Below are positions 1 through 20,510 of a stretch of DNA of 20,510 nucleotides, piece after piece. Both the position numbers and the translations under genes were made by a program. The notes under the pieces are model-generated. The model was not told where the DNA came from and ran no database searches. It was given only the letters and a program-made list of their open reading frames with translations. The stretch covers positions 1 through 20,510 of IMG/VR virus record IMGVR_UViG_3300025769_016770; one strand, given 5' to 3'. Each line of letters begins with the position of its first letter. Within the stretch, counting starts at the first letter, position 1. Source of the DNA: a virus.

Positions 1-1666
1 TACCTGTGGTTCCTTGAGTTCCATCAGTACCTTGGGTTCCATCAGTACCCTGAGTACCTGTGGTTCCTTGAGTTCCATCGGTTCCTTGAGTACCTGTGGT
101 TCCTTGGGTTCCATCAGTACCTTGGGTTCCATCGGTTCCTTGAGTACCTGTGGTTCCTTGGGTTCCATCAGTACCTTGGGTTCCATCGGTTCCTTGAGTA
201 CCTGTGGTTCCTTGGGTTCCATCAGTACCTTGGGTTCCATCGGTTCCCTGAGTACCTGTGGTTCCTTGGGTTCCATCAGTACCTTGGGTTCCATCGGTTC
301 CCTGAGTACCTGTGGTTCCTTGAGTTCCATCGGTTCCCTGAGTTCCATCAGTACCCTGAGTACCTGTGGTTCCTTGGGTTCCATCAGTACCCTGAGTACC
401 TGTGGTTCCTTGAGTTCCATCAGTACCCTGAGTACCTGTGGTTCCTTGGGTTCCATCGGTTCCCTGAGTACCATCAGTACCTTGAGTACCTGTGGTTCCT
501 TGGGTTCCATCGGTTCCCTGAGTACCATCAGTACCTTGAGTACCTGTGGTTCCTTGGGTTCCATCGGTTCCTTGGGTTCCATCGGTTCCCTGAGTACCAT
601 CTGTACCTTGGGTTCCATCAGTACCCTGAGTACCTGTGGTTCCTTGGGTTCCATCGGTTCCCTGAGTACCATCAGTACCTTGGGTTCCATCGGTTCCCTG
701 AGTACCATCTGTACCTTGGGTTCCATCAGTACCCTGAGTACCTGTGGTTCCTTGAGTACCATCTGTACCTTGAGTACCAGAACCTGTAGTTCCCTGAGTG
801 CCATCAGTACCCTGAGTTCCATCGGTTCCTTGAGTACCATCAGTTCCCTGAGTACCATCTGTACCTTGGGTTCCATCAGTTCCCTGAGTTCCATCAGTAC
901 CTTGGGTTCCATCGGTTCCCTGAGTTCCATCAGTACCCTGAGTACCTGTGGTTCCCTGAGTTCCATCAGTACCCTGAGTACCTGTGGTTCCTTGAGTTCC
1001 ATCGGTTCCTTGAGTACCTGTGGTTCCTTGGGTTCCATCGGTTCCCTGAGTTCCTGTTGTACCTTGGGTTCCATCAGTTCCTTGAGTACCAGAACCTGTA
1101 GTTCCCTGAGTTCCATCAGTACCTTGGGTTCCATCAGTACCTTGGGTTCCATCGGTTCCCTGAGTACCTGTGGTTCCTTGGGTTCCATCGGTTCCTTGGG
1201 TTCCATCAGTTCCTTGAGTACCAGAACCTGTAGTTCCCTGAGTTCCATCTGTACCTTGGGTTCCATCAGTACCTTGGGTTCCATCAGTTCCTTGAGTACC
1301 AGAACCTGCAGTTCCCTGAGTACCATCAGTACCCTGAGTACCATCAGTACCCTGAGTTCCATCGGTTCCTTGAGTACCAGAACCTGTAGTTCCCTGAGTA
1401 CCATCAGTACCCTGAGTTCCATCGGTTCCCTGAGTACCAGCACCTGTAGTTCCCTGAGTACCATCAGTACCCTGAGTTCCATCTGTACCTTGGGTTCCAT
1501 CAGTACCCTGAGTTCCATCTGTACCTTGAGTACCTGTAGTTCCCTGAGTTCCATCGGTTCCTTGTGTGCCATCAGTTCCCTGAGTACCATCACCTGTAGT
1601 TCCCTGAGTACCATCTGTACCTTGAGTACCTGTGGTTCCTTGGGTTCCATCGGTTCCTTGAGTACC
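1..1666 (-). repeat. Collagen-coding tandem repeat, 18/36-bp units, Gly-Thr-X
   Basis: The basic unit is 18 bp and encodes G-T-Q-G-T-D or G-T-Q-G-T-T; pairs of units give a 36-bp period. About 185 triplets are visible. X is threonine almost everywhere and Y is Gln, Asp or Thr, with one GTA triplet near 1306. No proline or lysine occurs in the shaft. The part nearer the left edge (1-770) is uninterrupted. Seven G-X-G interruptions (five GSG, one GAG, one GDG) lie at 776, 1088, 1220, 1298, 1376, 1436 and 1586. The repeat is coding, so it is neither a CRISPR array nor a non-coding satellite. Confidence 0.95.
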
Positions 1667-2671
1667 AGTTAGGAAAGAACCATTAGCGTAAAACGAAGTA
1701 GCACTAATAATACCAGTGTTTCCGTAGATTGTTACACCAGCACCAATAGTAACTTCATTATTGATACCATCAATAGTTACGGAAGCAGGACCGACAGTTA
1801 AAATGCCAGTAACTCTTGCATCTCCTTCGACAAGCAGACTATATTCAGAATCTGCCGTAGTTCCAATGCCGACGCTACTTGTAGTATGAATACCGGCAGC
1901 AGTCTGTTCAAAGTAACCTGTTCCACCGCCACCGCCACCGCTATTGTTAGTTACAAATTCAAACTTCCTTATCGAATGATCATATCTTAAAAACTTACCA
2001 TCATATGCAGATGCATTAGTAGCAATACCAACAATGTCATCAAGATACTTAAGTTGCGTCTCACCACCTCCACCTAATGTGGATAATTGTTGTTGAATAC
2101 GATTGACAAAAAGACGATAGTGATTTGAAAGATCATCTAAGGTTGCAAAATTCGTATTAGCATCAGGATTTTTTTCATCGAGAAGTCCTTCAGACAAAGA
2201 AACAATTTCTTGTTTTTGTTGTATTTCTGCGACTAATTTATGAAGTAATTTTATATCCTCATCATAATATTTTACTTCAGGAATTTCTGGAAATTGTAAA
2301 GGTTTAACTAATAATTTTTCTGCTTCACTATAACCAAATGCTCTACGAAGCCTATCTAATTCTACAGACAGTTGTCCTATATCTTTTTTATAATCAACTA
2401 CTTCAGGAATATTAGAAACTTGAGATTTTACTTGTTCAACTAATTTCTCAAGTTCTATAATTCTTTGATAGTTTTTATTCTCAACATTATCTACACCTTC
2501 TACTACTTCCTCCTCCTCATTATTTTCTTCAACAACAATCTCTTCCTTCTCATCCAATAAATCGGAAGGAGATAAAATTTTTTTTTGAGATTCAATTTCT
2601 ATTTCTTCATTATTTAACTTTTCTTCATTCTTTTTCTTCTCAAAGAAGTCCGAAGGTTTATTCAATGGCAC
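1..2671 (-). CDS. Collagen-like fibre protein, N-terminal part (C-terminus beyond left edge)
   Basis: The minus-strand frame is open from a GTG at 2671 to the left edge, giving 890 residues with no stop. It begins VPLNKPSDFF, a beginning I associate with cyanophage structural proteins. Residues 10-65 are acidic and lysine-rich and probably disordered. Residues 66-115 and 135-195 look like helical or coiled-coil segments (for example IIELEKLVEQV). A GGGGGG linker lies at 245-250. Residues 255-335 resemble the short beta-rich stretch found before phage fibre shafts (LLVEGDARVTGILTVG). From residue 336 the chain is Gly-Thr-Gln/Asp/Thr triplets. I infer a trimeric virion fibre with a collagen-type shaft. 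A good Shine-Dalgarno lies 9 nt before the GTG, and no ATG in this frame has comparable support. The C-terminal tip cannot be seen. Specific attachment site (tail, baseplate or head) is unknown. Confidence 0.88.
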   Translation of the reverse strand, partial: MPLNKPSDFFEKKKNEEKLNNEEIEIESQKKILSPSDLLDEKEEIVVEENNEEEEVVEGVDNVENKNYQRIIELEKLVEQVKSQVSNIPEVVDYKKDIGQLSVELDRLRRAFGYSEAEKLLVKPLQFPEIPEVKYYDEDIKLLHKLVAEIQQKQEIVSLSEGLLDEKNPDANTNFATLDDLSNHYRLFVNRIQQQLSTLGGGGETQLKYLDDIVGIATNASAYDGKFLRYDHSIRKFEFVTNNSGGGGGGTGYFEQTAAGIHTTSSVGIGTTADSEYSLLVEGDARVTGILTVGPASVTIDGINNEVTIGAGVTIYGNTGIISATSFYANGSFLTGTQGTDGTQGTTGTQGTDGTQGTTGDGTQGTDGTQGTDGTQGTTGTQGTDGTQGTDGTQGTDGTQGTDGTQGTTGAGTQGTDGTQGTDGTQGTTGSGTQGTDGTQGTDGTQGTDGTQGTAGSGTQGTDGTQGTDGTQGTDGTQGTTGSGTQGTDGTQGTDGTQGTTGTQGTDGTQGTDGTQGTDGTQGTTGSGTQGTDGTQGTTGTQGTDGTQGTTGTQGTDGTQGTTGTQGTDGTQGTTGTQGTDGTQGTDGTQGTDGTQGTDGTQGTDGTQGTDGTQGTDGTQGTDGTQGTTGSGTQGTDGTQGTTGTQGTDGTQGTDGTQGTDGTQGTDGTQGTDGTQGTTGTQGTDGTQGTDGTQGTDGTQGTDGTQGTTGTQGTDGTQGTDGTQGTTGTQGTDGTQGTDGTQGTTGTQGTDGTQGTTGTQGTDGTQGTTGTQGTDGTQGTDGTQGTTGTQGTDGTQGTDGTQGTTGTQGTDGTQGTDGTQGTTGTQGTDGTQGTDGTQGTTGTQGTDGTQGTDGTQGTTGTQGTDGTQGTTGTQGTDGTQGTDGTQGTTG

Positions 2672-2685: not shown

Positions 2686-2708
2686 ATATTTCTATATCCC
2701 ATATATGA

Positions 2709-2813: not shown

Positions 2814-4373
2814 TTAATTTTCCGTATCAAAAAAGAACATTTGCCACAATCTACTGTTATCTTTTACTGTACCAAAATACTTTGATGCAGAATGAATACA
2901 ACTAGCATCAAAGATGACCAAACGATTATAAACATTGCCAAGAACATCTACTGGTTCAAAAGGAGTTCCATCTAAATGATAATCTCCCGGAATATCTTTC
3001 CAAGAAGCATCATACCCTTCTTCATTATATGTTCTAGCTCTTGTTTTTTTGTGTGCGTACAAAGTTGTGCCACACTCAAAAGGAGCATTTGGACTTAAAT
3101 ATAGCATACCTCCCCACATCTGAGAGTCGCAATGATATACAATTGGTTGCCCAGACCAACAATATTGGAATCTACCATTCATTCCATGCTCTTTCCACTT
3201 AGTAATTTTTTTACCCATTATTTGCTCAAATCTTTCTTTGAGTCCTGGAAATAAAAACTGTTGATGGGTTCGATTACCAATATACCCTCTACCAATACCA
3301 CCAATATGATAATCTTGTTCCAATGCAAATTTTCTTATTGAATCCGGATTTTCATAAAAATTGTCCACCATCCATGTAGTTGATTTTGTGTTAGATGATA
3401 TACCAAAATTTAAACCTGTTTCTATATTTTTTTCTTGGGGTAACAAAAATTCTTTGACTCTAGGTAATTTAAAAATAATTTGAGGAAGAGATTCTAATGG
3501 GTAATTTTTCAGAACATAATTACATTTATTTTTATATTCCTCAACGAGTTTATCATCTTTAACAATTTGTTTGAATGATTCTACTGATAAGTTATTTACT
3601 ACAGACAAATTTCCATGATTACAGAAGGATTTTGCCTTTTCATTTCTCCTTTCTTCTCCCATCCATGTAAAATGCCATCCACAATCTTGAATGATTTTAT
3701 TATCTTGAGTTACCCAAACTGGAGAAATGGGACATTTATATTGTCCCCTAAATTTGGTCGGAGATCCTCCATTTTTTAATTGTTTAGCAGTACATAAAAC
3801 TAAAGATTTACTCCAATCTGCAGGAGTATCGTCAATAAAAAGTCTTTTATCCGCTCTACCTTCCAGAAGAACTAAAGGAACTTTTAAATAATTGCCATTT
3901 AAACATCTACACACATTTGAAAAATATTCAATAAACTCTGGATTTATTATCTCATCACAGTCACTAGAAATAAAAACGGTATCGTCATCATATTTGTCAA
4001 TAATATTAAGTAGTCCATCTTTTTGCAGTCTTTCTCTAGTCCAATATAATTCTCGACCAGTATTTTTTGCCACGCTTGCTTCATAAAAATCAACTTCATC
4101 TGGCGTTAAATTTATTTTATCATAATCAATTTCAATTACAGTAACTTGATTCTCAAAACCAAATTCTTTAATCAAATCTTTACAAATAAACTCTTTTTTA
4201 TTTCCACTAAATGTATGACTAGCTTCTACAATAATAAATTCATCAACATAATCTTTTAATAAATTTAATCTTAGTTCAAGAAGTTCTTTTTCATTAAAGA
4301 AAAAAAAGTAATCAATAATTTTTTTCATTGCAAGTTGACGATATGAACTTAAAATTTTAGTGGTGTTTTTCAT
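2814..4373 (-). CDS. GT17 glycosyltransferase fused to a C-terminal 2OG-Fe(II) oxygenase-like (DUF6445-type) domain
   Basis: The protein has 519 residues. Residues 17-315 match the GT17 (MGAT3-like) pattern: a start IIDYFFFFNEKELLELRL, the motif VDEFIIVEASHTFSG at 43-57, an acidic SSDCDEI at 136-142, and DCGWHFTWMG at 230-239. Residues 333-517 look like a 2OG-Fe(II) double-stranded beta-helix domain, with H414-x-D416, distal H494 and R508. By family, the N-terminal half should transfer a sugar (GlcNAc-type in MGAT3) and the C-terminal half may hydroxylate an unknown substrate. The start follows directly on the TAA of the upstream gene, with a weak GGGA before it; an internal ATG (codon 16) has no ribosome site. 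Its GT17 half is a paralogue of the GT17 domain of the preceding gene. The sugar donor and acceptor are not predictable. Confidence 0.8.
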   Translation of the reverse strand: MKNTTKILSSYRQLAMKKIIDYFFFFNEKELLELRLNLLKDYVDEFIIVEASHTFSGNKKEFICKDLIKEFGFENQVTVIEIDYDKINLTPDEVDFYEASVAKNTGRELYWTRERLQKDGLLNIIDKYDDDTVFISSDCDEIINPEFIEYFSNVCRCLNGNYLKVPLVLLEGRADKRLFIDDTPADWSKSLVLCTAKQLKNGGSPTKFRGQYKCPISPVWVTQDNKIIQDCGWHFTWMGEERRNEKAKSFCNHGNLSVVNNLSVESFKQIVKDDKLVEEYKNKCNYVLKNYPLESLPQIIFKLPRVKEFLLPQEKNIETGLNFGISSNTKSTTWMVDNFYENPDSIRKFALEQDYHIGGIGRGYIGNRTHQQFLFPGLKERFEQIMGKKITKWKEHGMNGRFQYCWSGQPIVYHCDSQMWGGMLYLSPNAPFECGTTLYAHKKTRARTYNEEGYDASWKDIPGDYHLDGTPFEPVDVLGNVYNRLVIFDASCIHSASKYFGTVKDNSRLWQMFFFDTEN

Positions 4374-7307
4374 TTAAAATCCCAAATATTTTTGTCTATT
4401 AAAATTTAAATCATAAGTAGTATATGATATATCATAGGTTTCATTATTAAATGGATTAGAATATGTATCTGAAAAAAAATTTTTTCCCCATTTCTTAGTA
4501 AGATATTCATTTTTATTTAATGTTCGCGATTTATTCACTTTTTCCTTTAAATCCATATTTAATCTCCAGGTTTGAGAACCACTAGTTTTATAGTCAGATT
4601 CTCCATGCAGATAGTCAATATTTAAGAAACTGGATTTTATGTTTTTTGTTGTTATTCTAATGTGATAATCAACATCTTCTATATAAGCTGGATATAAGTT
4701 TTCATCAAATAATCCACACTCTTGGACAACCCAATCTTTTATTAAAAATAAATCATAAGATCCACCTCCCCAATCAGATTTTTTAGCGTGTATCATACCG
4801 GAATCTGTTTTTAATGCTTCTTCATTCATTTTCTTCAGTAAACCAGATGTAAAACAAATATCATTGTTTGCAATGATCCAATACGGACAATTCATATATG
4901 ATTTAATAATCAAATTCCATGCACCACTTACCCCAAGATTAGATGGTAGATGGGTTACTTTAATTTTTTCTATAAATGGATGTTTTATACTTGCTATCTT
5001 ATTTAAGTCCTCATCAATTTCCCCTTTTCCATTATTATTAATAATAAAAAACTCTTTTACGGGATAATCAACGCTATCTATTAATCGTTTTAACCAGTGA
5101 ACTCCATTTACTATAGGAACTCCTATCATGGGAATAGAACTTTCATACTCAAATAATTTTTTAAAATCCGAAACTTTTATTAAGTTTAACCATTCTTCAC
5201 GATTTCTTTCAAGATTTTCATATACAAGATCTTCTTTTTTTTCAACTAAATTTTGAATACCTTTTCTAATAACTCCGCACCCATGATCAGTATCAACAAC
5301 AAACATTTCCAAATCATTTCTCTCCTTACGAAGATGAACAAATGCTTTCCAAGAATCCCCATTCCAAGTATCAACAACAGGATATGGTCTTTGATATTCT
5401 TCTTTCGTTGGATTCATATCATGACAAATAATATACCCACCAACATTTAAAATATCAAGGGAATTTAAAATGTCCGTTAAAACTTGATTATATTCATGAA
5501 GTCCATCAATAAAAATAATATCAAACTTTTCTTTATTTTGTTTAAAAAACTCATCCGAAGTTAAATGAAATGTTGCTGGACTATCCTCATTTGGATCAAC
5601 ACCAACTTTATAATCACATATTATATTTGAAATATTATCTCCTTTACTAACTCCTATTTCCAAATATTTTTTGGATTTTGTTTTTTCGATTAGAAAATTA
5701 ATAATATCTGTTCTTCTTGTTGATTCTTTTATAAATGGATCATGAGGTTCTATATTTAAAGTTTCTGGTATAAAAAACTTTTTTAAATGTTCAAACTCAA
5801 GTATTTCTGATGGAAGATTATTTAAATCATAATTCCTTAAAACTACTTTTTTATTTCCCCACGTATTTAAACCATTATCTTTTGGAGTCCATTTGTCGAT
5901 ATAGTCTTCAAGTTCTTTTGAATTCATGTCTTTTATGATTGCAGATTCTATGTGATCTGCATAATGTGATGTTGATTTTTGTTTTGTCTTTAATCTACTA
6001 GAATCACCCATCCAACTAAAATGCCACCCACAATCTTTTAATCTCTTTCCATCTTCTGTAACATATACTGTTTCAAAAGGATTTTGAATATTAAATCTCA
6101 TCTGAGCGGGAGTTGCTTTTTCAAAATGCTTCTTAGTGCATACGAAAAAAACATTGTCGATACTTAATGGAATATTAGTATCGGAATGATATACTCTAAA
6201 ATTTGCTCTTCCTTCTAGTTCCACTAGGGGTATTTTAATAATTTTATTTTGATTCTTAGATATATTATAAGTAAAATAATTTATATATTTTGGGTTGATA
6301 ATTTCATCAGCATCTGAAACAAAAAATATATCTCTATCATCAAATTGCGAAATAACAGAAAGCAAATCATCTAAGACTAATCTCTCTCTTGTTCTTGCAT
6401 TCAAAGAATTTTTATAAGTATCATTTGATTTTCCAGACAAAGAGCGAAAAATAATGTCAAATTCAGTATTTTCAACATCTTCATCATTTGATGGAAGGTT
6501 AGTCTGAACAAAAATAAATTTTTCCTCTGGCAAATTCAATTCCTTGATATATTCTTTTGCCAAAGGTTTCCAATCATTTCCACTATGAGTTTTTGTTCCC
6601 TCAAGAACTATAAACTTATCAACTTTATCATGAAGAAGTTTATACCTTAGTTCTAACAACTCTTTTTCATTAAAGAATCTAAAACAATCTATAATTTTTT
6701 TTCTTCCAATTTCCAATTTATCCACATTTTTTTCTTCAACCTCAATATTTAAATTTTTAATCTTTGTCTGTACAAAATTTTTATGATAATCATCCAAATC
6801 ATTGAAATACATATTTCTTAAATCAAGAAGACCTTCTTTATGTTCTTCCGTTTTTCCCCACCACCAAGATGATACTACCTTTTCATATAAAATACCCCAC
6901 TTACCTGGATATCCACATTCTAATCTAAGTTTAGGTGAATCGAAATCACAATTTTCTAAAGACTGTTTGCACAAATAATATGCATCTTGATATTGGTTGT
7001 GCCAATTTTGGAAGTTTGCGAGTTTATAATATGCTTCAGGTCTTTTTGGAAGAATAGACATTGCATGTTTATACATGCAACGAACATGTTCAAATCTATT
7101 TCCTTGAAGATCAAAACAAGTTCCAATATGAAGTAAACACTCATATGCTAGGTCTAAATCGTCTCCAGATCTATCGGCACATCTAAGAAAGAATGAAATT
7201 GCTGCAGCAGTTTGCCCTATAGAAAAATATTCTGTTGCTAAATTAAAATTAGTTTCAGGATTTTCTGGATCTAGAATATATTCAATTAAATAATTTTTTT
7301 CATTCAT
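4374..7307 (-). CDS. Four-domain protein: TPR, GT17 glycosyltransferase, SAM methyltransferase, GT2-like glycosyltransferase
   Basis: The protein has 977 residues. Residues 14-120 form TPR-like helical pairs (for example PEAYYKLANFQNWHNQYQDA). Residues 204-515 are GT17-like, with FFNEKELLELR at 211-221, VSDADEI at 330-336 and DCGWHFSWMG at 425-434. Residues 531-682 are a class I methyltransferase of the Methyltransf_24 type, with YLEIGVSKGDN at 548-558 and FIDGLHEY at 599-606. Residues 725-945 are a GT-A/GT2-like transferase with an ANND metal-site motif at 813-816 and an EDVD at 877-880. I infer one polypeptide that adds, extends and methylates a glycan, the TPR perhaps holding the acceptor. 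The ATG overlaps the upstream stop by 8 bp and has GGAG 10 nt before it. Translation of the three-gene operon is likely coupled. Confidence 0.85.
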   Translation of the reverse strand: MNEKNYLIEYILDPENPETNFNLATEYFSIGQTAAAISFFLRCADRSGDDLDLAYECLLHIGTCFDLQGNRFEHVRCMYKHAMSILPKRPEAYYKLANFQNWHNQYQDAYYLCKQSLENCDFDSPKLRLECGYPGKWGILYEKVVSSWWWGKTEEHKEGLLDLRNMYFNDLDDYHKNFVQTKIKNLNIEVEEKNVDKLEIGRKKIIDCFRFFNEKELLELRYKLLHDKVDKFIVLEGTKTHSGNDWKPLAKEYIKELNLPEEKFIFVQTNLPSNDEDVENTEFDIIFRSLSGKSNDTYKNSLNARTRERLVLDDLLSVISQFDDRDIFFVSDADEIINPKYINYFTYNISKNQNKIIKIPLVELEGRANFRVYHSDTNIPLSIDNVFFVCTKKHFEKATPAQMRFNIQNPFETVYVTEDGKRLKDCGWHFSWMGDSSRLKTKQKSTSHYADHIESAIIKDMNSKELEDYIDKWTPKDNGLNTWGNKKVVLRNYDLNNLPSEILEFEHLKKFFIPETLNIEPHDPFIKESTRRTDIINFLIEKTKSKKYLEIGVSKGDNISNIICDYKVGVDPNEDSPATFHLTSDEFFKQNKEKFDIIFIDGLHEYNQVLTDILNSLDILNVGGYIICHDMNPTKEEYQRPYPVVDTWNGDSWKAFVHLRKERNDLEMFVVDTDHGCGVIRKGIQNLVEKKEDLVYENLERNREEWLNLIKVSDFKKLFEYESSIPMIGVPIVNGVHWLKRLIDSVDYPVKEFFIINNNGKGEIDEDLNKIASIKHPFIEKIKVTHLPSNLGVSGAWNLIIKSYMNCPYWIIANNDICFTSGLLKKMNEEALKTDSGMIHAKKSDWGGGSYDLFLIKDWVVQECGLFDENLYPAYIEDVDYHIRITTKNIKSSFLNIDYLHGESDYKTSGSQTWRLNMDLKEKVNKSRTLNKNEYLTKKWGKNFFSDTYSNPFNNETYDISYTTYDLNFNRQKYLGF

Positions 7308-8280
7308 TTATAAAATTCTCCAACGCATCTTCAGAAATTTTTAAAACATAAGAAGCATTATCTTGCAATCCAAATGTAATTATATAATCATCTTTATACT
7401 TAGACATACCACAACAAAATTCAATATTTGCTCCCATAAAATCAAACTGTTTAGATTGTTTTAAAACATTCCAATTCTTATCCCAATAAGTAAATACATG
7501 CCGATATGTTGCATTTTTTCTATCTTGTTCACTACGAAAAAGATATGTAATATGGTGTATACATATATATCCATCTTTATATGGCATTACCTGAGATCCT
7601 CCTCTCAGATTTTGCATCATATTTTCTTTAAGATTACCAAGAAAAACTGTTTTGGTTGTATTAGTTTTTATGTCATATTTAACAATTTGTACTGGATTGG
7701 ACCATTTAACAAAGTGATATGGTTGATCTAATATAGGCATCCAATTTTTTTCACAATAACTATCTGAATTTTCAGGTACAGGTATTCTATGCCGATTAAT
7801 TTCTTTAAATGAATTGGGAATATCGATTTCAGATAATTCCATTCTACCAACACCATTTGTAGTTGTATCTCTCCTAACACCACAAAGATAAAATTTTTCT
7901 TCCCATTTAACAATTCTACAATCTTCCAACCCGACAAATTCCCATAAAGGTTTTCTATCAAAGTTAGAAGTATCTATTTTATCAAATGAAGTTAAAATTA
8001 AATTTTCATCCAAAATTCCAAAATAATTTGTAGTTGTCAAAGAAATATCATTTTCTGGATTTAAATATAAAAGAGGTCCCCACTGATGCTCATAGTTATT
8101 CTTTTCAGAATGGTACAGCGTATATTGACAGTGCCTTATATTTACAAAAATATCATTTCCATCAACAAAAACCGATGGATTGAAAAGGCCAGTACCATTA
8201 GTATGTTCGGATGGAATAATTAAAGGTTCTACAATTCCTCCAGAATTCAAAGCATACTGAGAAAAATTCATATCATCCAT
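7300..8280 (-). CDS. GH130-like five-bladed propeller glycosidase/phosphorylase
   Basis: The protein has 326 residues from the ATG at 8280. Motifs fit the GH130/GH43-like propeller superfamily: NPSVF at 34-38, GLEDCRI at 117-123, EKNWMPI at 177-183, RGGSQVMPYKDG at 226-237 and IEFCCGM at 286-292. GH130 enzymes phosphorolyse or hydrolyse beta-mannosides. The virus-borne branch with the KNWxPI motif is not characterised to my knowledge, so the activity is only inferred. I prefer ATG 8280 because AGGA (8293-8290) lies 9 nt before it. A TTG at 8289 touches the AGGA and is unlikely, and ATG 8271 is a weaker alternative. This is the first gene of the sugar operon and overlaps the next by 8 bp. It may trim or recycle the glycan made by its neighbours, or attack host surface glycans. 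Confidence 0.72.
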   Translation of the reverse strand: MDDMNFSQYALNSGGIVEPLIIPSEHTNGTGLFNPSVFVDGNDIFVNIRHCQYTLYHSEKNNYEHQWGPLLYLNPENDISLTTTNYFGILDENLILTSFDKIDTSNFDRKPLWEFVGLEDCRIVKWEEKFYLCGVRRDTTTNGVGRMELSEIDIPNSFKEINRHRIPVPENSDSYCEKNWMPILDQPYHFVKWSNPVQIVKYDIKTNTTKTVFLGNLKENMMQNLRGGSQVMPYKDGYICIHHITYLFRSEQDRKNATYRHVFTYWDKNWNVLKQSKQFDFMGANIEFCCGMSKYKDDYIITFGLQDNASYVLKISEDALENFINE

Positions 8281-8300
8281 ATAAAACAATCCTACATTTT

Positions 8301-8351: not shown

Positions 8352-8367
8352 ACCTTTGTTAGGGTTG

Positions 8368-9662: not shown

Positions 9663-9691
9663 ATAGAATAATATAGTTTTCAGTATTTATG
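9662..9691 (-). repeat. Duplicated promoter-leader cassette, copy 1
   Basis: These 30 bp match 16101-16130 at 26 positions with no gap. The match runs from the late box to the last base of the start codon and includes the block AAAACTAYATTATTCTAT. No Shine-Dalgarno is present in either copy. Confidence 0.85.
9684..9691 (-). promoter_or_regulatory. Putative late promoter CATAAATA before the P4H-like gene
   Basis: The minus strand reads CATAAATA, 21 nt before the ATG at 9662. The spacing and the sequence down to the ATG match the leader of the GT4-FkbM gene. Confidence 0.7.
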
Positions 9692-9693
9692 TG

Positions 9694-11655: not shown

Positions 11656-11674
11656 TTATCTTATCACTTTTTTA

Positions 11675-11682
11675 TATTTAGA
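11675..11682 (-). promoter_or_regulatory. Putative late promoter TCTAAATA before repeat-protein paralogue 1
   Basis: The minus strand reads TCTAAATA, 19 nt before the ATG at 11655, and overlaps the stop codon of the preceding gene. CTAAATA is a variant of the late box reported for marine T4-like phages. Confidence 0.5.
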
Positions 11683-13597: not shown

Positions 13598-13601
13598 TTA
13601 A

Positions 13602-14447
13602 TTACTGGCGTAGATCGTTATTAAAAAGTGGTACCTTTTCTTGTTCTAATTGCTTTGTTTCTTCTTTACCCCCAAGAAGTTTTTCTGTCATCCCACTGAT
13701 TTCTTCAATGCCAGAAGCAACATGCTTTTGAAGGCTCTCAAGGAATTCCCTTGCGTTTGTTGGGTCAGCATATCCTTCCTTAATTCTATTAACATCATCA
13801 TCAAGAACAGTTGGTGCCGTTGCTCTTCTCATAGAACGAATATTTCCACCTGACACACCAGTTTGTGCTGCTAGTAAATCATCAAGTGCTTGGTTTGCAA
13901 ATCTTCTTTCCCAATAAACTGGTTGGTCGGCATCAAATTCTGCTTTGGTTGGAGGATGACCACCATTTAACTCAATAAGTCTTTCAATAACTTTATCGAA
14001 AAAAGATAGTTCATCAATTTGTGCCTTGAACCCAGAATTCAATCCATCAATAAAACGATGAAAATGAAACTCGTCAATATCATACCAACAAAGTTCTTCT
14101 CCACCATCTCTGGTTTTCCACCAAATTGGTTTTGATTTATCTTTACCTTCCCATTTGAAATGAAATTCCCTAGCATGTTTTTTTGCTTCTTGAATGCTGG
14201 AAAGTAATCCTTCGGCAACAGACTTTCTATTAATAATTGCTGCTTTAAATGCCGATGGAATTGTAAAGTTGTCATGAATAATAAACTTTTCAATTTGGAA
14301 ATTTGATCTTCCCTGTGCTAATTCAATTTCAGATGCTCTCCAACGATTACATTCAGAAAGAGCTTTTAATGTAAATTCTTTATTTTTTTCTTCATCTAAA
14401 ACATCTTCTGCTTTAGCCAGTGCAAATTCATTGTAATTATCAGACAT
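13602..14447 (-). CDS. Unrecognised protein, probably a conserved phage structural or accessory protein
   Basis: The protein has 281 residues. It is charged and mostly helical by eye, with no signal peptide or membrane segment. There is a tryptophan/histidine-rich middle (PIWWKTRDGGEELCWYD at 109-125, then FHFHRF) and a probable coiled coil near the C-terminus (about 230-275). It reads like a conserved cyanophage protein, but I cannot assign a function. GGAG lies 6 nt before the ATG in a 22-bp gap, and a CCTAAATA box lies 33 nt upstream inside the end of the GT4-FkbM gene. Position between a fibre-like protein and a decoration enzyme, and the late-type box, suggest a virion protein or assembly factor. 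Confidence 0.75.
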   Translation of the reverse strand: MSDNYNEFALAKAEDVLDEEKNKEFTLKALSECNRWRASEIELAQGRSNFQIEKFIIHDNFTIPSAFKAAIINRKSVAEGLLSSIQEAKKHAREFHFKWEGKDKSKPIWWKTRDGGEELCWYDIDEFHFHRFIDGLNSGFKAQIDELSFFDKVIERLIELNGGHPPTKAEFDADQPVYWERRFANQALDDLLAAQTGVSGGNIRSMRRATAPTVLDDDVNRIKEGYADPTNAREFLESLQKHVASGIEEISGMTEKLLGGKEETKQLEQEKVPLFNNDLRQ

Positions 14448-14469
14448 AAAACTCCGTTAAATTATGATG

Positions 14470-16101
14470 TCAACTTGATTTATTTAGGTTGTTGTTTTTG
14501 GCAAAAAATAATCCGGAACAATCATTTTCCCATTCAAGGTCTATTGTAAAATTTTTATTTTTTAAGAATGAAACTAAATTATTGATGTTAAATTTTGAAG
14601 TTACGTTGTTATGAAATTCCCCAACAATTTCATTGACTTTATGTAGAAGTTTCGAGTTCATAATAATTTCAAACTCCGATCCCTCTGTATCTATTTTTAT
14701 TAATCGCACTCTTTCCAATTGATTTAAAATATCATCTAAAGATATGCACCGTACCTTTTGAATCGAATAATTTTTATATCCTTCTTGTTTAATATTGTAT
14801 AATGTATTCATACCAGTATTCCACTTTGTTGGATATGAATAAAGATCTACTTCATTAGCATTGTGTCCATAGACTGCCATATTAAAAGTTCTAACACCGG
14901 AATAACTTTCCAAATTTTTTTGTAATAAGTTATAATTTTCTTTTTCTGGTTCAAAAGAAACAACATTTTTACATCCAAGATCAAGACACAATTTTGAAAA
15001 AGATCCGCGATGTGCTCCAATATCAATTACAACATCAGTAGATTTTAAATTTTTAATTTGATAATCATTTTTAATATAAACATTATTAAAAATAATTTCA
15101 TCCATAGTCATTCTTTCAAAAATAAAAATTGGAATTTTTTTTGTTATAACATCTATATAATATTTCCATTTATTTGATATTATTTTCCAATTATAATTTT
15201 TTGTGGCATACATTGATATTTTTTTTGATATATCATTATATTCATCTCTAACCTTATCAAATGCCGAAAGAGCACGAATTACTTCCTCGGCAAAGTTTTT
15301 ATGAAAAGTTTCATCAGGAATCCAACCTCTTAAAGTATTCTGTCCTGACATTGGAATATATTTACCCATCCAGTTAGAAGTCTCTGGAAGTGCTCCCATG
15401 CCTGTTGTAATAGGAAAGCATCCACAAGACATTGCTTCTGCCAAAGACACGCAGAAGGTTTCCTCCCAGACATTAGGATGGATATAAAAAGCAGCATCCT
15501 GAATATGAGAAAGAAGTTCTTCTCTATCAATACAAGGAGAATATTCGACACCAGGAAGTTCTTTAAGTTCTTTATAAACAGGAATAAATGGTGATGGTTC
15601 TAGTCCATTTGGTCCAGTGACAGTTTCATTATCCCCTTCGCCTGGTTGAATATCTCCATAAAGAGACATGGAAGAAAATACTTTGAGTTTTGCATCTGGA
15701 TGATGCTTAATAACTTCTTTCCAAATAGGAACCAAAGGAGCAACTCCTTTGTGTGGTGCCGAAAAGAAAATACAAGTCTTTGACTTTGGTTTTCCAGATG
15801 GACGAAACATCTCATGCACTCCATTTGGAATAACATGAAGTTTCTCTGCTGGTGCTCTGTTATACTTTATAAACTGCTCCCTTTCCCAATTTGAAACGCA
15901 AACGATTCCATCAACTTTATCCACATGTTGTGGAAGATCTTTGTGTCCCATCTGGTCACAATTATCATGTGCCCAGATAATTTTATATTTTTTATCTGAC
16001 TTTATAATTTCATGCGTTGTTCTCTGCACATCAACATTTTCTGGAAAAGTATAATGTTGAGAAAGATAATGAAAAGAACTTTCAGTCGCACCAGATTTCA
16101 T
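14470..16101 (-). CDS. GT4 glycosyltransferase fused to an FkbM-family methyltransferase
   Basis: The protein has 543 residues. Residues 1-330 are a GT-B fold transferase of family GT4: HVIPNGV at 89-95, then the E-x7-E signature of EETFCVSLAEAMSCG (E214, E222), GCFPI, and a helical end. The usual N-terminal glycine-rich strand and about 40-60 residues appear to be missing, so the donor- or acceptor-side domain may be shortened. Residues 351-540 are an FkbM methyltransferase: VIDIGAHRGSFSK (358-370), VSFEPEKENYNLLQKNL (381-397), and IKIDTEGSE at 468-476. FkbM enzymes O-methylate sugars, so the fusion would add and cap a glycan residue. The start is preceded by an in-frame TAA within the late box, so no longer form exists on this DNA. 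No Shine-Dalgarno is seen. Confidence 0.88.
   Translation of the reverse strand: MKSGATESSFHYLSQHYTFPENVDVQRTTHEIIKSDKKYKIIWAHDNCDQMGHKDLPQHVDKVDGIVCVSNWEREQFIKYNRAPAEKLHVIPNGVHEMFRPSGKPKSKTCIFFSAPHKGVAPLVPIWKEVIKHHPDAKLKVFSSMSLYGDIQPGEGDNETVTGPNGLEPSPFIPVYKELKELPGVEYSPCIDREELLSHIQDAAFYIHPNVWEETFCVSLAEAMSCGCFPITTGMGALPETSNWMGKYIPMSGQNTLRGWIPDETFHKNFAEEVIRALSAFDKVRDEYNDISKKISMYATKNYNWKIISNKWKYYIDVITKKIPIFIFERMTMDEIIFNNVYIKNDYQIKNLKSTDVVIDIGAHRGSFSKLCLDLGCKNVVSFEPEKENYNLLQKNLESYSGVRTFNMAVYGHNANEVDLYSYPTKWNTGMNTLYNIKQEGYKNYSIQKVRCISLDDILNQLERVRLIKIDTEGSEFEIIMNSKLLHKVNEIVGEFHNNVTSKFNINNLVSFLKNKNFTIDLEWENDCSGLFFAKNNNLNKSS
14481..14488 (-). promoter_or_regulatory. Possible late promoter CCTAAATA
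   Basis: The minus strand reads CCTAAATA inside the last codons of the GT4-FkbM gene, 33 nt before the ATG at 14447. It encodes Asn-Leu-Asn-Lys there, so chance is a fair alternative. Confidence 0.35.
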
Positions 16102-16130
16102 ATAGAATAATGTAGTTTTGATTATTTATC
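16101..16130 (-). repeat. Duplicated promoter-leader cassette, copy 2
   Basis: This cassette is 26 of 30 identical to 9662-9691, ungapped. In both places it separates the end of a YGYFxGG repeat gene from a modification-enzyme gene. Confidence 0.85.
16123..16130 (-). promoter_or_regulatory. Putative late promoter GATAAATA before the GT4-FkbM gene
   Basis: The minus strand reads GATAAATA, 21 nt before the ATG at 16101, the same spacing as for the P4H-like gene. Confidence 0.7.
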
Positions 16131-16132
16131 AG

Positions 16133-17029
16133 TTAGTTTGAGACTCCTGCTGAACCATATCTTGCTTGAGTTAATTCATTTCCTACTGAAGGTACTGCTA
16201 CTGTTTCGCTGGAAAAATCAATACGGTCAATGGTGCAATACCACGTAGTTCCATTATAACCACCAGCAAAGTAAGCATAATTGGAATTGGAACTTTCTGC
16301 TAAGTATCGTCTCTTTAAAGTTAAATTTGCTCCATGAACTGGTGGTCCTACTACAGTTTCACTGGAAAAATCTAAACGATCAATGGCACAAGTGTCACCT
16401 GGAATTGTTGGACTAGAACCACCAACAAAGTAACCATAATTAGAACTAGAGACTGCTGTTAAACCTTCTGTTATTTTATCTAACCCATTTCCTACTGGAG
16501 GCACTGCCACAATTTCGGTAGAAAAATCAATTCGGTCAATAGTATTAAAATAACTCACCGCATCATTGCCACCGGCAAAGTAACCATAATTTGAATTAGA
16601 TAGTGCTGTTAATGCACTTCTTGGTTTAGTTAATCCTCCTGGTGGTGTTCCTACTGTTTCATTGGAGAAATCTAGACGATCAATGACGCAATACCGCGTA
16701 ACTCCATTATTACCACCGGCAAAGTAACCATAATTAGAATTGGAAAGTGCGCAAAGATTAGTTCTTTGTTGACTTAACCCATTTCCTACTGTAGGTACTG
16801 CTACTGTTTCGTTAGAAAAATCAAGTCGATCAATAAGATTAACCAAAGGTGGGGCAAAACCACCAGCAAAATATCCATAATTGGAATTAGAAACTGCTGC
16901 TAAATTATTTCTTGCTTGAGTTAAATTTGCTCCATGAACTGGTGGTCCTACTACAGTTTCACTAGAAAAATCAATGCGGTCAATGGTGCAAACCTGAGGT
17001 GGAGCAAACCCACCGGCAAAGTAACCATA
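16133..17029 (-). repeat. Six homogeneous propeller-blade repeats in paralogue 3
   Basis: This is the second half of the gene. Units of about 145-150 bp share long near-identical stretches, such as the PPVHGANLT segment at 16321 and 16921, and agree closely with the first half of paralogue 2. Confidence 0.8.
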
Positions 17030-18124
17030 AGATTGTGAAATTGGATTTCCATTTTTAGCAGTATAAATGGTTGAAAATCTAGTGATTGGTTTTCTTGGCG
17101 ATTCTGCAAATGCTGTTACCGCTGCTGCTTCGGCAGATATTTTTTCGGTTCCTAAGGTATAAGTGGAATTTGAATAATCAAATCTGTAAATATTTGTTGT
17201 ATTATTGGGAGCATTATAAGTTGGTTTTCCGCCAACAACGTAAGCAAAATTATTTCCATCCGGAAATGCTCCACCATTTCTAAGATTAACTGGAAATGAA
17301 GTCGAGGGAGACACTGTATCGCTACTAAATTCGATCTTGTTTACTGAGTTCCATGATCCGGAAGGACCCATTCCAGCAAAAAAATAAGCATGTTCTTTAC
17401 TACTTGCACCACTATGTTCTGCTTTAATATTTGATAAAACACCAGGTAAAGTAGAAACTACTTTGGATGAAAAATCAAGTTTTCTAATAATATTTCGATA
17501 TGCATGGGGGTTAGATGGGGGTATTCTGCCATAACCACCAGAAATATATCCAAACTCAAATTTAGATTGATTTGGTGCTTCAACAGCAGCAGTCTGGGTC
17601 AAAAACATCCCTTCTGGTGTTGGACTTGGGAAATAAATAGGACTAGATACTGTTTCATTGGAAGTGGAATATACGAGAGCATTATCTCTATCAATTCCAC
17701 TACCCAAATGATTACTACTATAACCATGACATGCCATTCCATATCCATATTTGATTGTTGACATGGTTGCATTTTGAGCATTAACTCTATTACTTGTCCA
17801 CCAATTCGTAGTATCAAGTCCACTTACAGAAGCACGAGCATGAGTTGTAAAATCAATTCTATCAACGCTGGATATATAGTTTGGACTAACTAAACTAGAA
17901 TATCCACCAACAGCATAAGCATGTTCTTTACCAACCATTCCAGAAATGGAAGATTGTTGAAGAGATAAACTTATATCGCTAAGTTTAGTAGTACTATTGT
18001 TAAAATCATACTGGTCAATTTCGGTTGAAGAAGAAAATATATAACCATACTGAGGATCATAAGAAGTCCAAATATCCTTAATTTGTTTTTTATATGTCGT
18101 CTTTAAACCAAATACGCCAGCCAT
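16133..18124 (-). CDS. YGYFxGG repeat protein, probable double six-bladed propeller (paralogue 3)
   Basis: The protein has 663 residues and begins MAGVFGLKTTY. Twelve repeats can be counted. The first six (about 22-340) are diverged (KEHAYAVGG, IKYGYGMACHG, FEFGYISGG). A linker at 341-364 (TRFSTIYTAKNGNPISQ) aligns with the linker of the paralogues. The last six (366-663) are uniform: SNYGYFAGG, TIDRIDFSSETV, then a variable PP-rich turn. This is the mirror image of paralogue 2, where the first half is uniform. The protein stops exactly at a blade boundary, after GVSN. I infer a virion-displayed double propeller. The start has a late box 21 nt upstream and overlaps no neighbour. It lies 10 bp downstream of the glycosyltransferase stop. 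Confidence 0.8.
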   Translation of the reverse strand: MAGVFGLKTTYKKQIKDIWTSYDPQYGYIFSSSTEIDQYDFNNSTTKLSDISLSLQQSSISGMVGKEHAYAVGGYSSLVSPNYISSVDRIDFTTHARASVSGLDTTNWWTSNRVNAQNATMSTIKYGYGMACHGYSSNHLGSGIDRDNALVYSTSNETVSSPIYFPSPTPEGMFLTQTAAVEAPNQSKFEFGYISGGYGRIPPSNPHAYRNIIRKLDFSSKVVSTLPGVLSNIKAEHSGASSKEHAYFFAGMGPSGSWNSVNKIEFSSDTVSPSTSFPVNLRNGGAFPDGNNFAYVVGGKPTYNAPNNTTNIYRFDYSNSTYTLGTEKISAEAAAVTAFAESPRKPITRFSTIYTAKNGNPISQSYGYFAGGFAPPQVCTIDRIDFSSETVVGPPVHGANLTQARNNLAAVSNSNYGYFAGGFAPPLVNLIDRLDFSNETVAVPTVGNGLSQQRTNLCALSNSNYGYFAGGNNGVTRYCVIDRLDFSNETVGTPPGGLTKPRSALTALSNSNYGYFAGGNDAVSYFNTIDRIDFSTEIVAVPPVGNGLDKITEGLTAVSSSNYGYFVGGSSPTIPGDTCAIDRLDFSSETVVGPPVHGANLTLKRRYLAESSNSNYAYFAGGYNGTTWYCTIDRIDFSSETVAVPSVGNELTQARYGSAGVSN
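16907..16992 (-). repeat. 86-bp blade segment shared with paralogue 2, copy 2
   Basis: This segment is the partner of 12638-12723; they differ at two bases only. A further partial copy begins near 16321 in the same gene. Confidence 0.9.
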
Positions 18125-18134
18125 TTATAACACT

Positions 18135-18803
18135 CTATTTTTCTATATTTATTTCCTGAAATACATGAGAACCAACATGGCACAAACGAATTGTTGTATC
18201 TAACCATGCGGTAAATCCAACACTCTTTGCTCTTTCAAAGAACGAAAAATCTTCTGGAAGATAACTCATGTCTTTTTTCAATTCATTAAAATAGTGATAT
18301 GAATTATAATATTCTGCTTCAGTAATTGGATAGGTAGAATGCCCCTGTGCAGGAATATATTTTAGATCTTCATAGTTCTCTTTTATTTTTTCAAATACTC
18401 TACGGTGAATAAGAGCAAAACCAAATCCAATACTTTCAATCTTTACCAAACTATTCTCTGCTACCGGTGGTTGAGAGATATTATAATTGTATTGTAATGG
18501 AATACTCTTCATTGGATATGCGCCACATACAATATCCTTTTGATGTGATAGAAGTTTTAATACATCTTCAGAAGTGAATCCAACATCAGCATCAATAAAC
18601 ATTACATACTCATATTGAGTATTATTCATAAAGAAATTGGCAATCCTTGATCGACCTTTTGTGATTAGACTCTCATTTGCAAGAGTAATCAAACCATGAT
18701 CAATTTGATTTGATCTCAAATCTTTGCCAAGATTAAACAATCCCTTGGCAGTTTTATCACTAACAAGTCCGCCATAACAAGGCAGTGCAATTAAAACGCT
18801 CAT
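18135..18803 (-). CDS. GT-A fold glycosyltransferase (GT2-like, DxD)
   Basis: The protein has 222 residues and begins VLIALPCYGG, a typical first strand of a GT-A nucleotide-sugar fold. A metal-binding DAD lies at 71-73 in YVMFIDADVGF. SIGFGFALIHRRVFEKI (124-140) and EDFSFFERAKSVGFTAWLD (184-202) supply the acceptor-side and catalytic-base region. A late H209 and H213 in CHVGSHVF resemble the second metal ligand of such enzymes. It is short but seems complete for a small cytoplasmic phage transferase. The donor sugar is unknown. Its ATG overlaps the stop of the upstream oxygenase gene (ATGA), so the two are translationally coupled. It could prime a glycan that the GT4-FkbM and GT17 enzymes extend. 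Confidence 0.8.
   Translation of the reverse strand: MSVLIALPCYGGLVSDKTAKGLFNLGKDLRSNQIDHGLITLANESLITKGRSRIANFFMNNTQYEYVMFIDADVGFTSEDVLKLLSHQKDIVCGAYPMKSIPLQYNYNISQPPVAENSLVKIESIGFGFALIHRRVFEKIKENYEDLKYIPAQGHSTYPITEAEYYNSYHYFNELKKDMSYLPEDFSFFERAKSVGFTAWLDTTIRLCHVGSHVFQEINIEK
18146..18153 (-). promoter_or_regulatory. Putative late promoter AATAAATA before repeat-protein paralogue 3
   Basis: The minus strand reads AATAAATA, 21 nt before the ATG at 18124, inside the 3' end of the glycosyltransferase gene. The spacing equals that of the two cassette copies. Confidence 0.6.
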
Positions 18804-19378
18804 ACTAATAACTCAATATTAAAGGAAATGGAAATACGATTTTCGTCTGATGTGTTTGGTACAACAGAATGTGGAAGCCAGGATGGAAATAAAAGTAAAT
18901 CTCCAATCTCTACCTGATGTGTAAAATACTCATCTTTAATTAAACAACTTCTTTGGAAATCCATCATTCTTGCTGGTCGTGGATCCTCAAACATGATTGA
19001 ATTATTATCTTTTGATAATTGTATATAATATACTCCACTCATCCAACCAGATGGATGAACATGAGAAAAATTCATTCCTCCTTTTGGGTTAATATTTCCC
19101 CACATGGATCTAATAACCATTTGTGGTGTTTTTTTACTTATATCCGCAATAATATTCTGTGCAATAATTGTCGTCTTTTCTAAGAGTGGTTTAAAAATTT
19201 CTTGATTCCAGAGATCAGTATCACTTTGCCATCCACCTCTATTACTTCTTATCTTTCCAGAAGTTTTTTTAGATAGATCAATCAAAAAATTTTTATATTT
19301 TTCATTTTCTTTTTCATCAAAAATATTAGAACTGTAAAATACAGTGGGAAATAACTCCCCCTTTTTAATATTAAACAT
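18800..19378 (-). CDS. 2OG-Fe(II) oxygenase, PF13759/TIGR02466 type
   Basis: The protein has 192 residues from the ATG at 19378. It shows the pattern of this family: NRGGWQSDTDLW (46-57), then WGNINPKGGMNFSHVHPSGWMSGVYYIQ with H106 and H108, FEDPRP, and GDLLLFPSWLPHSVVPN with H170, followed by R181. The members are uncharacterised and common in marine phages and their hosts. A hydroxylase acting on a protein or sugar is the usual guess. A TTG at 19381 would add one residue; ATG is preferred. No strong Shine-Dalgarno is seen. It lies 17 bp after the stop of the collagen-like fibre gene, so it is probably read on the fibre transcript, and it overlaps the next gene by 4 bp. Confidence 0.85.
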   Translation of the reverse strand: MFNIKKGELFPTVFYSSNIFDEKENEKYKNFLIDLSKKTSGKIRSNRGGWQSDTDLWNQEIFKPLLEKTTIIAQNIIADISKKTPQMVIRSMWGNINPKGGMNFSHVHPSGWMSGVYYIQLSKDNNSIMFEDPRPARMMDFQRSCLIKDEYFTHQVEIGDLLLFPSWLPHSVVPNTSDENRISISFNIELLV

Positions 19379-19395
19379 CAAAAATAATATTCACA

Positions 19396-20510
19396 TCAAG
19401 TTATATATCTTCCGGAAAGATTAACTGATATTGAACTTGTAACTCCAACCTCAACAACAACTGCATCCGTTGGTTCAATTCTTTTTTCTTTTTGTAGAAT
19501 TTGAACCACACTATTCTGTGGTATTGTCAACTCTTTGACAAGATAACCTTGTCTGATTGTTCCTAATCTAAAAATAGAAACAGAAACATCTACATCCAAA
19601 ATATCACTATAATTTGTCAAATTGATTACATTTAATGAGAATGGATTTGAACTTGCCGTAAATACAGTATGAATTCCAGTAACTCCTATAGATGCTGCAA
19701 TTCCAACATAAGTTGTATCAGTTCTTTCTTTATAAGTAACCCAACAATCTAAAGCATTATTGACTCCGGCAGCAGTGGTTCCTACTCCAACAAAGGATGC
19801 AAATCTTAATTTGTCTTGAGGGTTCATGACCAATGACTGATCGATAACTTCAAGTGCTCCTTGGTATGGAACTAATACCTTATTAGTTAAAGGAACACCA
19901 TTCCAAGTATTACTTCCAGTATTGAAATCAACATGTGAGGTAAAATAAACATCTGCGGGAGATATATTTGCAGCATGTATGCTTAGTAATTCATAAGTTT
20001 TTCCTGCTGTTGATGGGAAAGATTTTGCAACGGCAACAAAACCATCGATATCATTAGAAGCCGAATGATAGATTGTTGTTGTTATACCGATATCAAACCT
20101 TAAACCAGGACCATCTTCACCTGGAGTACCAGCACCTATAGTTCCCTGGGTACCATCAAGACCTTGAGTACCATCTAGACCTTGGGTTCCATCAGTTCCC
20201 TGAGTACCAGCACCTGTAGTTCCCTGGGTACCATCGGTTCCTTGAGTACCATCTAGACCTTGGGTCCCATCAGTTCCCTGAGTACCAGCACCTGTAGTTC
20301 CCTGGGTACCATCGGTTCCTTGAGTACCTGTGGTTCCTTGAGTTCCATCGGTTCCTTGAGTACCTGTGGTTCCTTGAGTTCCATCGGTTCCTTGAGTACC
20401 TGTGGTTCCTTGAGTTCCATCGGTTCCTTGGGTTCCATCGGTTCCTTGAGTACCTGTGGTTCCTTGAGTTCCATCGGTTCCTTGAGTACCTGTGGTTCCT
20501 TGAGTTCCAT
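19396..20510 (-). CDS. Collagen-like fibre protein, C-terminal part (N-terminus beyond right edge)
   Basis: One open frame runs from the right edge to the TAA at 19396, giving 370 residues. About 135 residues are Gly-Thr-X triplets with a few GAG interruptions and GLD triplets, ending GTPGEDGPG. Then come about 234 residues of beta-rich C-terminal region. That region holds two similar units: ELLSIHAANISPADVYF with VLVPYQGALEVI and MNPQDKLRF, and SLNVINLTNYSDILDVDVS with LTIPQNSVVQIL and IEPTDAVVVEV. I infer a trimeric virion fibre whose tip or foldon is this duplicated beta-sandwich. A TTG at 19833 could seem to start a separate gene, but it is in frame with the collagen part and has no ribosome site. 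The downstream oxygenase follows after 17 bp. Confidence 0.9.
   Translation of the reverse strand, partial: GTQGTTGTQGTDGTQGTTGTQGTDGTQGTDGTQGTTGTQGTDGTQGTTGTQGTDGTQGTTGTQGTDGTQGTTGAGTQGTDGTQGLDGTQGTDGTQGTTGAGTQGTDGTQGLDGTQGLDGTQGTIGAGTPGEDGPGLRFDIGITTTIYHSASNDIDGFVAVAKSFPSTAGKTYELLSIHAANISPADVYFTSHVDFNTGSNTWNGVPLTNKVLVPYQGALEVIDQSLVMNPQDKLRFASFVGVGTTAAGVNNALDCWVTYKERTDTTYVGIAASIGVTGIHTVFTASSNPFSLNVINLTNYSDILDVDVSVSIFRLGTIRQGYLVKELTIPQNSVVQILQKEKRIEPTDAVVVEVGVTSSISVNLSGRYIT
20104..20510 (-). repeat. Collagen-coding tandem repeat of the second fibre
   Basis: The 18/36-bp units are the same as at 1-1666, plus a higher-order 78-bp period: GAG interruptions lie at 20128, 20206 and 20284. The last 24 bases of the window equal the first 24, as expected inside one repeat. 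Confidence 0.92.

Follow-up and report, generated by a model that had tools for sequence, protein, structure and literature searches.

In the collagen prolyl 4-hydroxylases (C-P4H), the leprecans, the PLODs and AspH, a tetratricopeptide repeat (TPR) part has been found or predicted N-terminal to the 2-oxoglutarate (2OG) oxygenase domain, according to the account in PMC6817910, and in the collagen prolyl and lysyl hydroxylases and AspH this part is described as binding the substrate (PMC6817910, PMC12433258). Mimivirus L230 is described as joining hydroxylase and glycosyltransferase (GT) activity on collagen (PMC9546862). SgtA of C. difficile, a GT with TPR repeats, is reported to add beta-O-GlcNAc to Thr of a collagen repeat (PMC7157674). 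As to phages, glycans carried by mycobacteriophage virion proteins are cited in PMC12619734, and the collagens of E. coli prophages, as recombinant, unglycosylated proteins, are thought in PMC3368898 to depend partly on Pro at the X position of Gly-X-Y. Enzymes of every family treated below are known, as are viruses that modify their own virions; what appears to be new is a cassette of such enzymes tied to proline-poor phage collagens. It occupies positions 2814-8289 of the viral record IMGVR_UViG_3300025769_016770, the whole of which, 20,510 bases, is called the window here. We lean, a little beyond an even balance, towards reading it as a fibre-directed protein-modification cassette, guided by its TPR domain and acting on the proline-poor fibres of the phage itself. 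The fibre and cassette genes are the following (ORF, open reading frame).

2-2671, minus strand: fibre A, collagen-like, N-terminal part with a (GTX)n shaft; C-terminal part beyond the left window end (ORF; Thr at X in 180/180)
2814-4373, minus strand: GT17 fused to a DUF6445 2OG oxygenase domain at about residues 325-517 (Pfam; HxD...H...R in 50/50; model)
4374-7307, minus strand: TPR domain, GT17, Methyltransf_24 and GT2 (Pfam; TPR relatives; PDB sequence search)
7300-8289, minus strand: GH130/GT108-fold protein, the constant gene of the cassette (Pfam below cut-off; model; 8-base overlap with the TPR gene)
19396-20508, minus strand: fibre B, collagen-like, C-terminal part; N-terminal part beyond the right window end (ORF; Thr at X in 37/40)

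A preliminary description of the window had counted five GT, two methyltransferase and four 2OG-oxygenase domains, plus a GH130-like enzyme, between the two fibres, and ORFs, Pfam, PHROGs and models bore this inventory out. Missing from it were the N-terminal TPR domain of the 4374-7307 product (about residues 7-187), three kelch-like repeat proteins and ORF9. Ten of the window's 14 gene products were scanned with Pfam and PHROGs, these being all except the fibres and two of the kelch-like proteins. GT17 was matched by 2814-4373 (E 4.5e-13) and 4374-7307 (E 5.3e-10), the latter also matching Methyltransf_24 (2.3e-10) and GT2 (1.1e-7). The TPR part, also found by PDB sequence search, was 54% identical to that of S-SCSM2R and 42% to that of DSL-LC02.

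The DUF6445 domain, which shares one chain with GT17, matched Pfam above cut-off (E 3.3e-6). Its residues H94, D96, H174 and R188, the HxD...H...R iron triad plus 2OG Arg, were invariant in 50/50 sequences. The structure model (predicted local distance difference test, pLDDT, 92) lay nearest to OGFOD1 (Z 13.5), with PHD2 and bacterial prolyl 4-hydroxylase (P4H) next (Z about 12-13.5); the structural matches were mostly protein hydroxylases, with a few small-molecule enzymes (SnoN) or enzymes of unknown role. Going by these residues and this model, the domain is of the 2OG-Fe(II) oxygenase type with a prolyl-hydroxylase fold. PDB sequence searches with the profiles of DUF6445 and of ORF5, a neighbouring gene described below, returned nothing useful. 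The 7300-8289 protein matched Pfam PF04041 with E 6.2e-5 and 22.5 bits, below the 26-bit gathering score, and we therefore call it GH130-fold or GH130-like rather than filing it as GH130. Its model (pLDDT 90) showed a GH130-type fold over the whole protein and superposed on the beta-1,2-mannan (oligomannan) phosphorylase Teth514_1788 (9fj8) with Z 23.7 over 271 residues (root-mean-square deviation, rmsd, 3.3; 15% identity) and on the GDP-mannose-dependent Leishmania MPT-2 with Z 18.1 over 262 residues (rmsd 3.9); the best Foldseek match was 7fir (E 1.1e-10). The Leishmania MPT mannosyltransferases are named GT108. E122, D123, R125 and other active-site-like residues were invariant in 78/78 relatives, and they may include the equivalent of the catalytic Asp of GH130. 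A PDB sequence search with the protein or its profile gave no match. The shared fold of the DUF6445 and GH130-like proteins is no proof of substrate.

The cassette is a unit that recurs in other phages: the GH130-fold protein is followed by TPR, a swappable GT/methyltransferase middle and then the DUF6445 2OG domain. S-SCSM2R and DSL-LC02 have the same order with a different middle, and in DSL-LC02 the cassette and a Thr-rich collagen gene are divergently oriented, two further genes of that kind lying beyond. In environmental viral contigs, at least 593 stretches were related to the GH130-like profile and at least 308 to the DUF6445 profile; the best 80 stretches of each scan were read, so that the locus set leans towards relatives of the window. 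A GH130-like relative was present in 3 of 50,697 GenBank phage records (E 1e-5), one of them at 25% identity. A scan of genome contigs for a cellular source of the cassette yielded five contigs of 3-18 kb, four titled metagenome-assembled genome and one bin, perhaps themselves phage, and a cellular source was not retained. The TPR domain was present in 141/147 loci with a GH130-like gene (a count that includes the window, its own contigs and redundant loci). Of 140 GH130-like/TPR gene pairs, 119 overlapped or lay at most 18 bases apart, 80 of them overlapping by 4-8 bases, and 21 were more than 400 bases apart. In one locus (L057) the GH130-like protein is fused to DUF6445, and elsewhere to other domains. 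DUF6445 escaped detection in some loci, partly because contigs end.

Over 93 non-redundant segments, Pfam placed FkbM in 29, GT17 in 16, Methyltransf_24 in 15, GT25 in 14 and GT2 in 13; we prefer these tallies to our local labels from iterated small profiles, which drifted, several 'FkbM' and 'GT25' labels having weak or no Pfam support. The binder, the hydroxylase and the GH130-like protein thus recur, and the middle is swapped between phages. Radical SAM and SPASM domains occurred in 5 and 4 of the 93 segments, respectively. One protein (L163 1068-2897) fuses a GH130-like part to SPASM (above cut-off) and radical SAM (below cut-off), and the TPR protein of DSL-LC02 (L003 13989-16142) has, by eye, a similar Cys motif; both proteins adjoin Thr-rich collagens. 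We found no description of the GH130-fold/TPR/variable/DUF6445 cassette in the open-licence papers searched on phage collagens, virion glycosylation and related enzymes.

The fibres of the window are of an unusual composition. Counting runs of at least six triplets, Thr stood at X in 217/220 in-window Gly-X-Y triplets, as the preliminary description had stated for nearly every X position, and these triplets held zero Pro and zero Lys; tandem-repeat scores in the window reached 1120. Across the collagens in the retrieved loci, X was Thr in 41%, Ile in 13%, Leu in 10% and Pro in 2.4%, and Y was Gln in 64% and Thr in 16%, with Pro outside the 12 commonest residues. By the usual rules, long proline-free (Gly-Thr-X)n shafts are not expected to form a stable triple helix without help. 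Fibre A follows ORF2 (the 2814-4373 gene) on the same strand after a gap of 142 bases. It is complete, at 1528 residues, in a 99.99% identical contig (L088 10743-15329) and has 1426 residues in a second close contig (L087 10743-15023), a difference of 102 residues between contigs that are 98.7% identical over 14 kb; the shafts may differ in their number of repeats, or the difference may come from assembly. The 99.99% identical contig also shows the N-terminus of fibre B (seen in L568). Over 243 residues, the C-terminal domain of fibre B shares 30% identity (E 2e-21) with that of an AG-345-L05 fibre (L004 42-4034) whose shaft is non-collagen and, by eye, YadA-like; shaft type may thus be swapped under one tip.

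The association of the cassette with collagen-like fibres was seen at two scales. Where the upstream neighbour of the GH130-like gene was in reach, it lay on the same strand in 111/136 loci. Among 75 non-redundant upstream neighbours (from 77, leaving out ORF5 of the window and one short ORF of L074), 15 matched Pfam Collagen, 13 Peptidase_S74 and 6 a tail assembly chaperone, in overlapping sets; other neighbours matched virion structural or tail PHROGs. At the scale of whole records, a (GXY)10 array was present in 25/29 long cassette records, hand-chosen among larger contigs (45-247 kb), against 2/11 long records (at least 45 kb) from the sets picked by ThyX or gp5-like markers, one of the two being a cassette carrier (Fisher 1e-4). 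When the long cassette records were clustered at 80% identity, 14/17 clusters held at least one positive and 13 were all positive. The control sets, each of 50 out of 80 records and mostly the longer contigs among these, had (GXY)10 in 3/50 gp5-like-picked and 2/50 ThyX-picked records; taken together, both cassette carriers had the array against 3/98 other records (p 0.002). Among six cyanophage-type records, only the two with the cassette had (GXY)10.

The converse comparison started from collagens. The cassette marker occurred in 17/50 Thr-type records (two of them the window's own contigs), 11/50 Ile-type and 1/50 Pro-type records, the Pro-type records holding twice the bases of the Thr-type ones. 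The Thr-type set comprised 50 of 77 stretches, with L202, L212 and L215 passed over because their contigs were already represented and none taken after L222; the Ile- and Pro-type sets were the first 50 of 80 listed, each from at least 120 stretches. The preliminary description had named equal frequency in phages lacking such fibres as the finding that would speak against it. For the cassette marker this did not turn out to be so: it was present in 17/50 of the Thr-collagen records against 1/50 ThyX-picked and 1/50 gp5-like-picked records, and each of these two also held a Gly-X-Y array.

For the substrate, order of reactions, linkage and benefit of the cassette we infer the following scheme. 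The TPR domain would bind a long virion fibre poor in proline, most probably the neighbouring collagen-like fibre, and the P4H-fold DUF6445 domain would hydroxylate some of the residues of this fibre. Sugars may be added or trimmed by the GH130/GT108-fold protein and by the exchangeable GTs (GT17, GT25, GT2), and FkbM or Methyltransf_24 domains may methylate. A swapped middle would give different surface chemistry between phages, and the modification could stabilise the shaft or change its recognition. We favour such a fibre-modifying cassette because of the precedents of the TPR-2OG hydroxylases, mimivirus L230 and SgtA, and because the prolines of the E. coli prophage collagens are missing here.

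Several observations weigh against this reading. The contigs of the marker-picked controls were for the most part shorter than those of the 29 cassette records, and our p-values are optimistic since related phages are not independent. Four of the 29 long cassette records had no Gly-X-Y array, and no collagen ORF was detected in 21 of the 47 loci that extend 6 kb to either side. Without the window's own contigs, the marker was found in 15/48 Thr-type against 11/50 Ile-type records (p 0.36). Between 17 loci with GTs and 42 other loci, mean Thr at X was 0.51 against 0.38 and the median 0.34 against 0.36; this comparison used rough local labels on redundant loci, and five of the 17 were the window or its own contigs, with values near 1.0. 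The in-window shafts, without Pro or Lys, also lack the canonical targets of collagen hydroxylation. Finally, the FkbM, GT4, GT2 and GT25 families commonly act on glycans rather than proteins.

Thr at X spanned 0.00-1.00 among the collagens of cassette loci, and Thr as a necessary target was rejected: Thr-poor collagens stand beside cassettes (0.00 at X in L061 and L012, 0.04 in L059) and GT content did not track Thr. The Thr-specific association of the preliminary description was therefore not confirmed, and a Thr-dependent association across the family, as an SgtA-type system would show, was absent from the comparison of Thr- and Ile-type records above. As for hydroxylation, the 220 in-window triplets offered 0 Pro at Y, the position acted on by collagen prolyl 4-hydroxylases, and 0 Lys at Y, that of the lysyl hydroxylases (LH/PLOD) and L230. 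A P4H-fold enzyme beside nearly Pro-free collagens points to another target residue, or to another protein.

That the enzymes modify host surface glycans (O-antigen or capsule), for a block of superinfection or altered attachment, and lie near fibres only through a shared hypervariable region of host interaction, appears to us an unlikely but serious explanation. Host lipopolysaccharide or O-antigen is the published reading, itself a point against ours, of GT clusters in pelagimyophages (PMC7029224) and cyanophages (PMC7824862), as far as these accounts describe them, and S-SSM7 and Sf-FS3 carry annotated clusters of sugar-nucleotide, GT and 2OG genes without any (GXY)10. In the window, however, Pfam detected no sugar-nucleotide pathway family among the 10 proteins scanned, the pairing of TPR with a prolyl-hydroxylase fold is typical of protein substrates, and SgtA offers the precedent of a TPR-GT acting on a collagen repeat. 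The association of the cassette with collagen type (17/50 and 11/50 against 1/50) also speaks against this explanation.

The substrate might also be another virion protein, namely the kelch-like repeats, fibres of the S74 type or the large structural proteins frequently encoded ahead of the cassette. We regard this as improbable: upstream neighbours are often non-collagen virion proteins, some cassette records have no (GXY)10 and the enzymes of the window are interspersed with three kelch proteins, but the array is present in 25/29 long records and the kelch islands of S-SKS1 and AG-345-L05 have no cassette. A mere lineage effect, in which one aquatic phage group carries both proline-poor collagens and the cassette without functional link, seems very improbable. 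Pro-collagen and marker-picked records may indeed stem from other phages or habitats, and, by score, 9 of the 17 Thr-collagen records with the marker resemble one another, related records inflating the counts; direct same-strand adjacency in many divergent loci, and positives in 14/17 clusters at 80% identity, speak against it.

The fibre-directed reading concerns 2814-8289. The remaining genes of the window are these.

8401-9009, plus strand: ORF5, divergent 2OG-type oxygenase-like; PHROG label 'ferrochelatase' (H107, D109, H158 and R160 in 17/17)
9003-9662, minus strand: P4H-like 2OG oxygenase (PF13640 2e-15; PDB prolyl 4-hydroxylases E 3e-7)
9694-11655, minus strand: kelch-like YGYFxGG repeat protein (phrog_19111 E 1e-109; Pfam kelch below cut-off)
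11678-13597, minus strand: kelch-like YGYFxGG repeat protein (38% identity to the 9694-11655 protein)
13602-14447, minus strand: ORF9 (relative at 66% in S-SKS1; 41% to the part behind GT4 in AG-345-L05)
14470-16101, minus strand: GT4 and FkbM methyltransferase (Pfam; GT4 half 44% identical to AG-345-L05)
16133-18124, minus strand: kelch-like YGYFxGG repeat protein (31% identity to the 9694-11655 protein)
18135-18803, minus strand: GT2-like protein, phrog_1574 (Pfam, PHROGs; 54% relative in AG-345-L05)
18800-19381, minus strand: 2OG oxygenase, 2OG-FeII_Oxy_5 (PF13759 E 2e-27)

Pfam gave GT4 (E 4.7e-7) and FkbM (E 3.5e-16) for 14470-16101, and a weak GT2 match (E 0.0035, below cut-off) for the stand-alone GT2-like protein. 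The 31-kb contig that extends the window (99.99% identical over 18,289 bases) adds transaldolase, HNH endonuclease and glutaredoxin-like genes, read by eye. The sole DNA relative found for the window was Synechococcus phage S-SKS1 (two records), and the nearest protein relatives of the cassette genes are in Synechococcus phages; judged by its sequence, the window is a cyanophage-type record.

S-SKS1 carries relatives of the P4H-like protein, ORF9, the kelch proteins and ORF5, plus an annotated sulfotransferase. AG-345-L05 carries relatives of the P4H-like (45%), GT2-like, GT4, kelch and ORF9 proteins, plus DUF6445-like stretches. Neither has (GXY)10 or a GH130-like gene. Most enzymes of 9003-19381 are for this reason independent of collagen fibres and to be judged apart; they are probably a second, separate surface-modification set linked to the kelch proteins. 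The single decoration island of the preliminary description had to be given up accordingly, and an association of the enzymes with collagen-like fibres is supported for the GH130-TPR-GT/methyltransferase-2OG cassette and not for the kelch, P4H-like, ORF5-like, GT4 and GT2-like proteins. The 2OG protein at 18800-19381 had no relative in the compared stretch of S-SKS1 or AG-345-L05. The three kelch-like proteins (9694-18124) alternate with modifying enzymes and have relatives in similar islands of these two phages. ORF9 resembles the C-terminal half of the AG-345-L05 GT4 protein (L004 11929-13824), and this joining behind GT4 suggests that GT4 and ORF9 work together. ORF5, a recurrent divergent neighbour of the GH130-like gene, had no Pfam match; its invariant H-x-D...H...R makes a 2OG-type enzyme likely, and the 'ferrochelatase' label of PHROGs and of the S-SKS1 record looks wrong in view of it.

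Many environmental water phages carry this set of enzymes, so far little noticed and probably hydroxylating proteins and adding sugars, often beside collagen-like tail fibres. This hints that such phages modify the chemistry of their own fibres in much the way that animals do with collagen. Environmental contigs commonly hold the cassette and GenBank phages almost never do, so that a widespread change of the virion surface may have gone unseen. The neighbouring hydroxylase/GT set offers a testable answer to the stability puzzle of proline-free shafts, an exchange of middle domains would let phages differ in the chemistry of a shared type of fibre, and S-SCSM2R, a cassette carrier whose host is known (Synechococcus sp. 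WH7803), is open to a direct test. Going further, the cassette could be an independently evolved phage counterpart of the machinery with which animals modify collagen, and could serve to stabilise and disguise proline-free fibres in very many uncultured aquatic phages; this wider idea is tentative and rather doubtful.

Compared with the known systems, the fibres of the window type, without Pro, differ from the E. coli prophage collagens with their Pro at X, and the mycobacteriophage glycans are described on capsid and tail tube, not on fibres. The likeness to SgtA-BclA3 lies in the layout, a TPR-GT gene immediately upstream of a Thr-rich collagen-like gene (PMC7157674), and in the window a TPR-GT gene near a Thr-rich collagen. 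SgtA, however, has 358 residues with a C-terminal TPR and acts on GPT repeats at the spore surface, and the relevant passages of PMC7157674 mention no 2OG or GH130 partner, whereas the phage TPR is often N-terminal and the cassette is not Thr-specific. With C-P4H, as described, the cassette shares a TPR-type binder with a 2OG hydroxylase serving collagen. With LH3 and L230, described as uniting hydroxylase and GT activity in one protein that serves collagen, it shares the single chain of GT17 and DUF6445 at 2814-4373. Unlike the animal collagen systems, its enzymes are known from sequence and model, and the in-window shafts have neither Pro nor Lys. Beyond what is seen in mimivirus L230/R699 and the animal enzymes, the cassette of the phages includes methyltransferases and a GH130-fold protein, and its GTs are GT17 and others.

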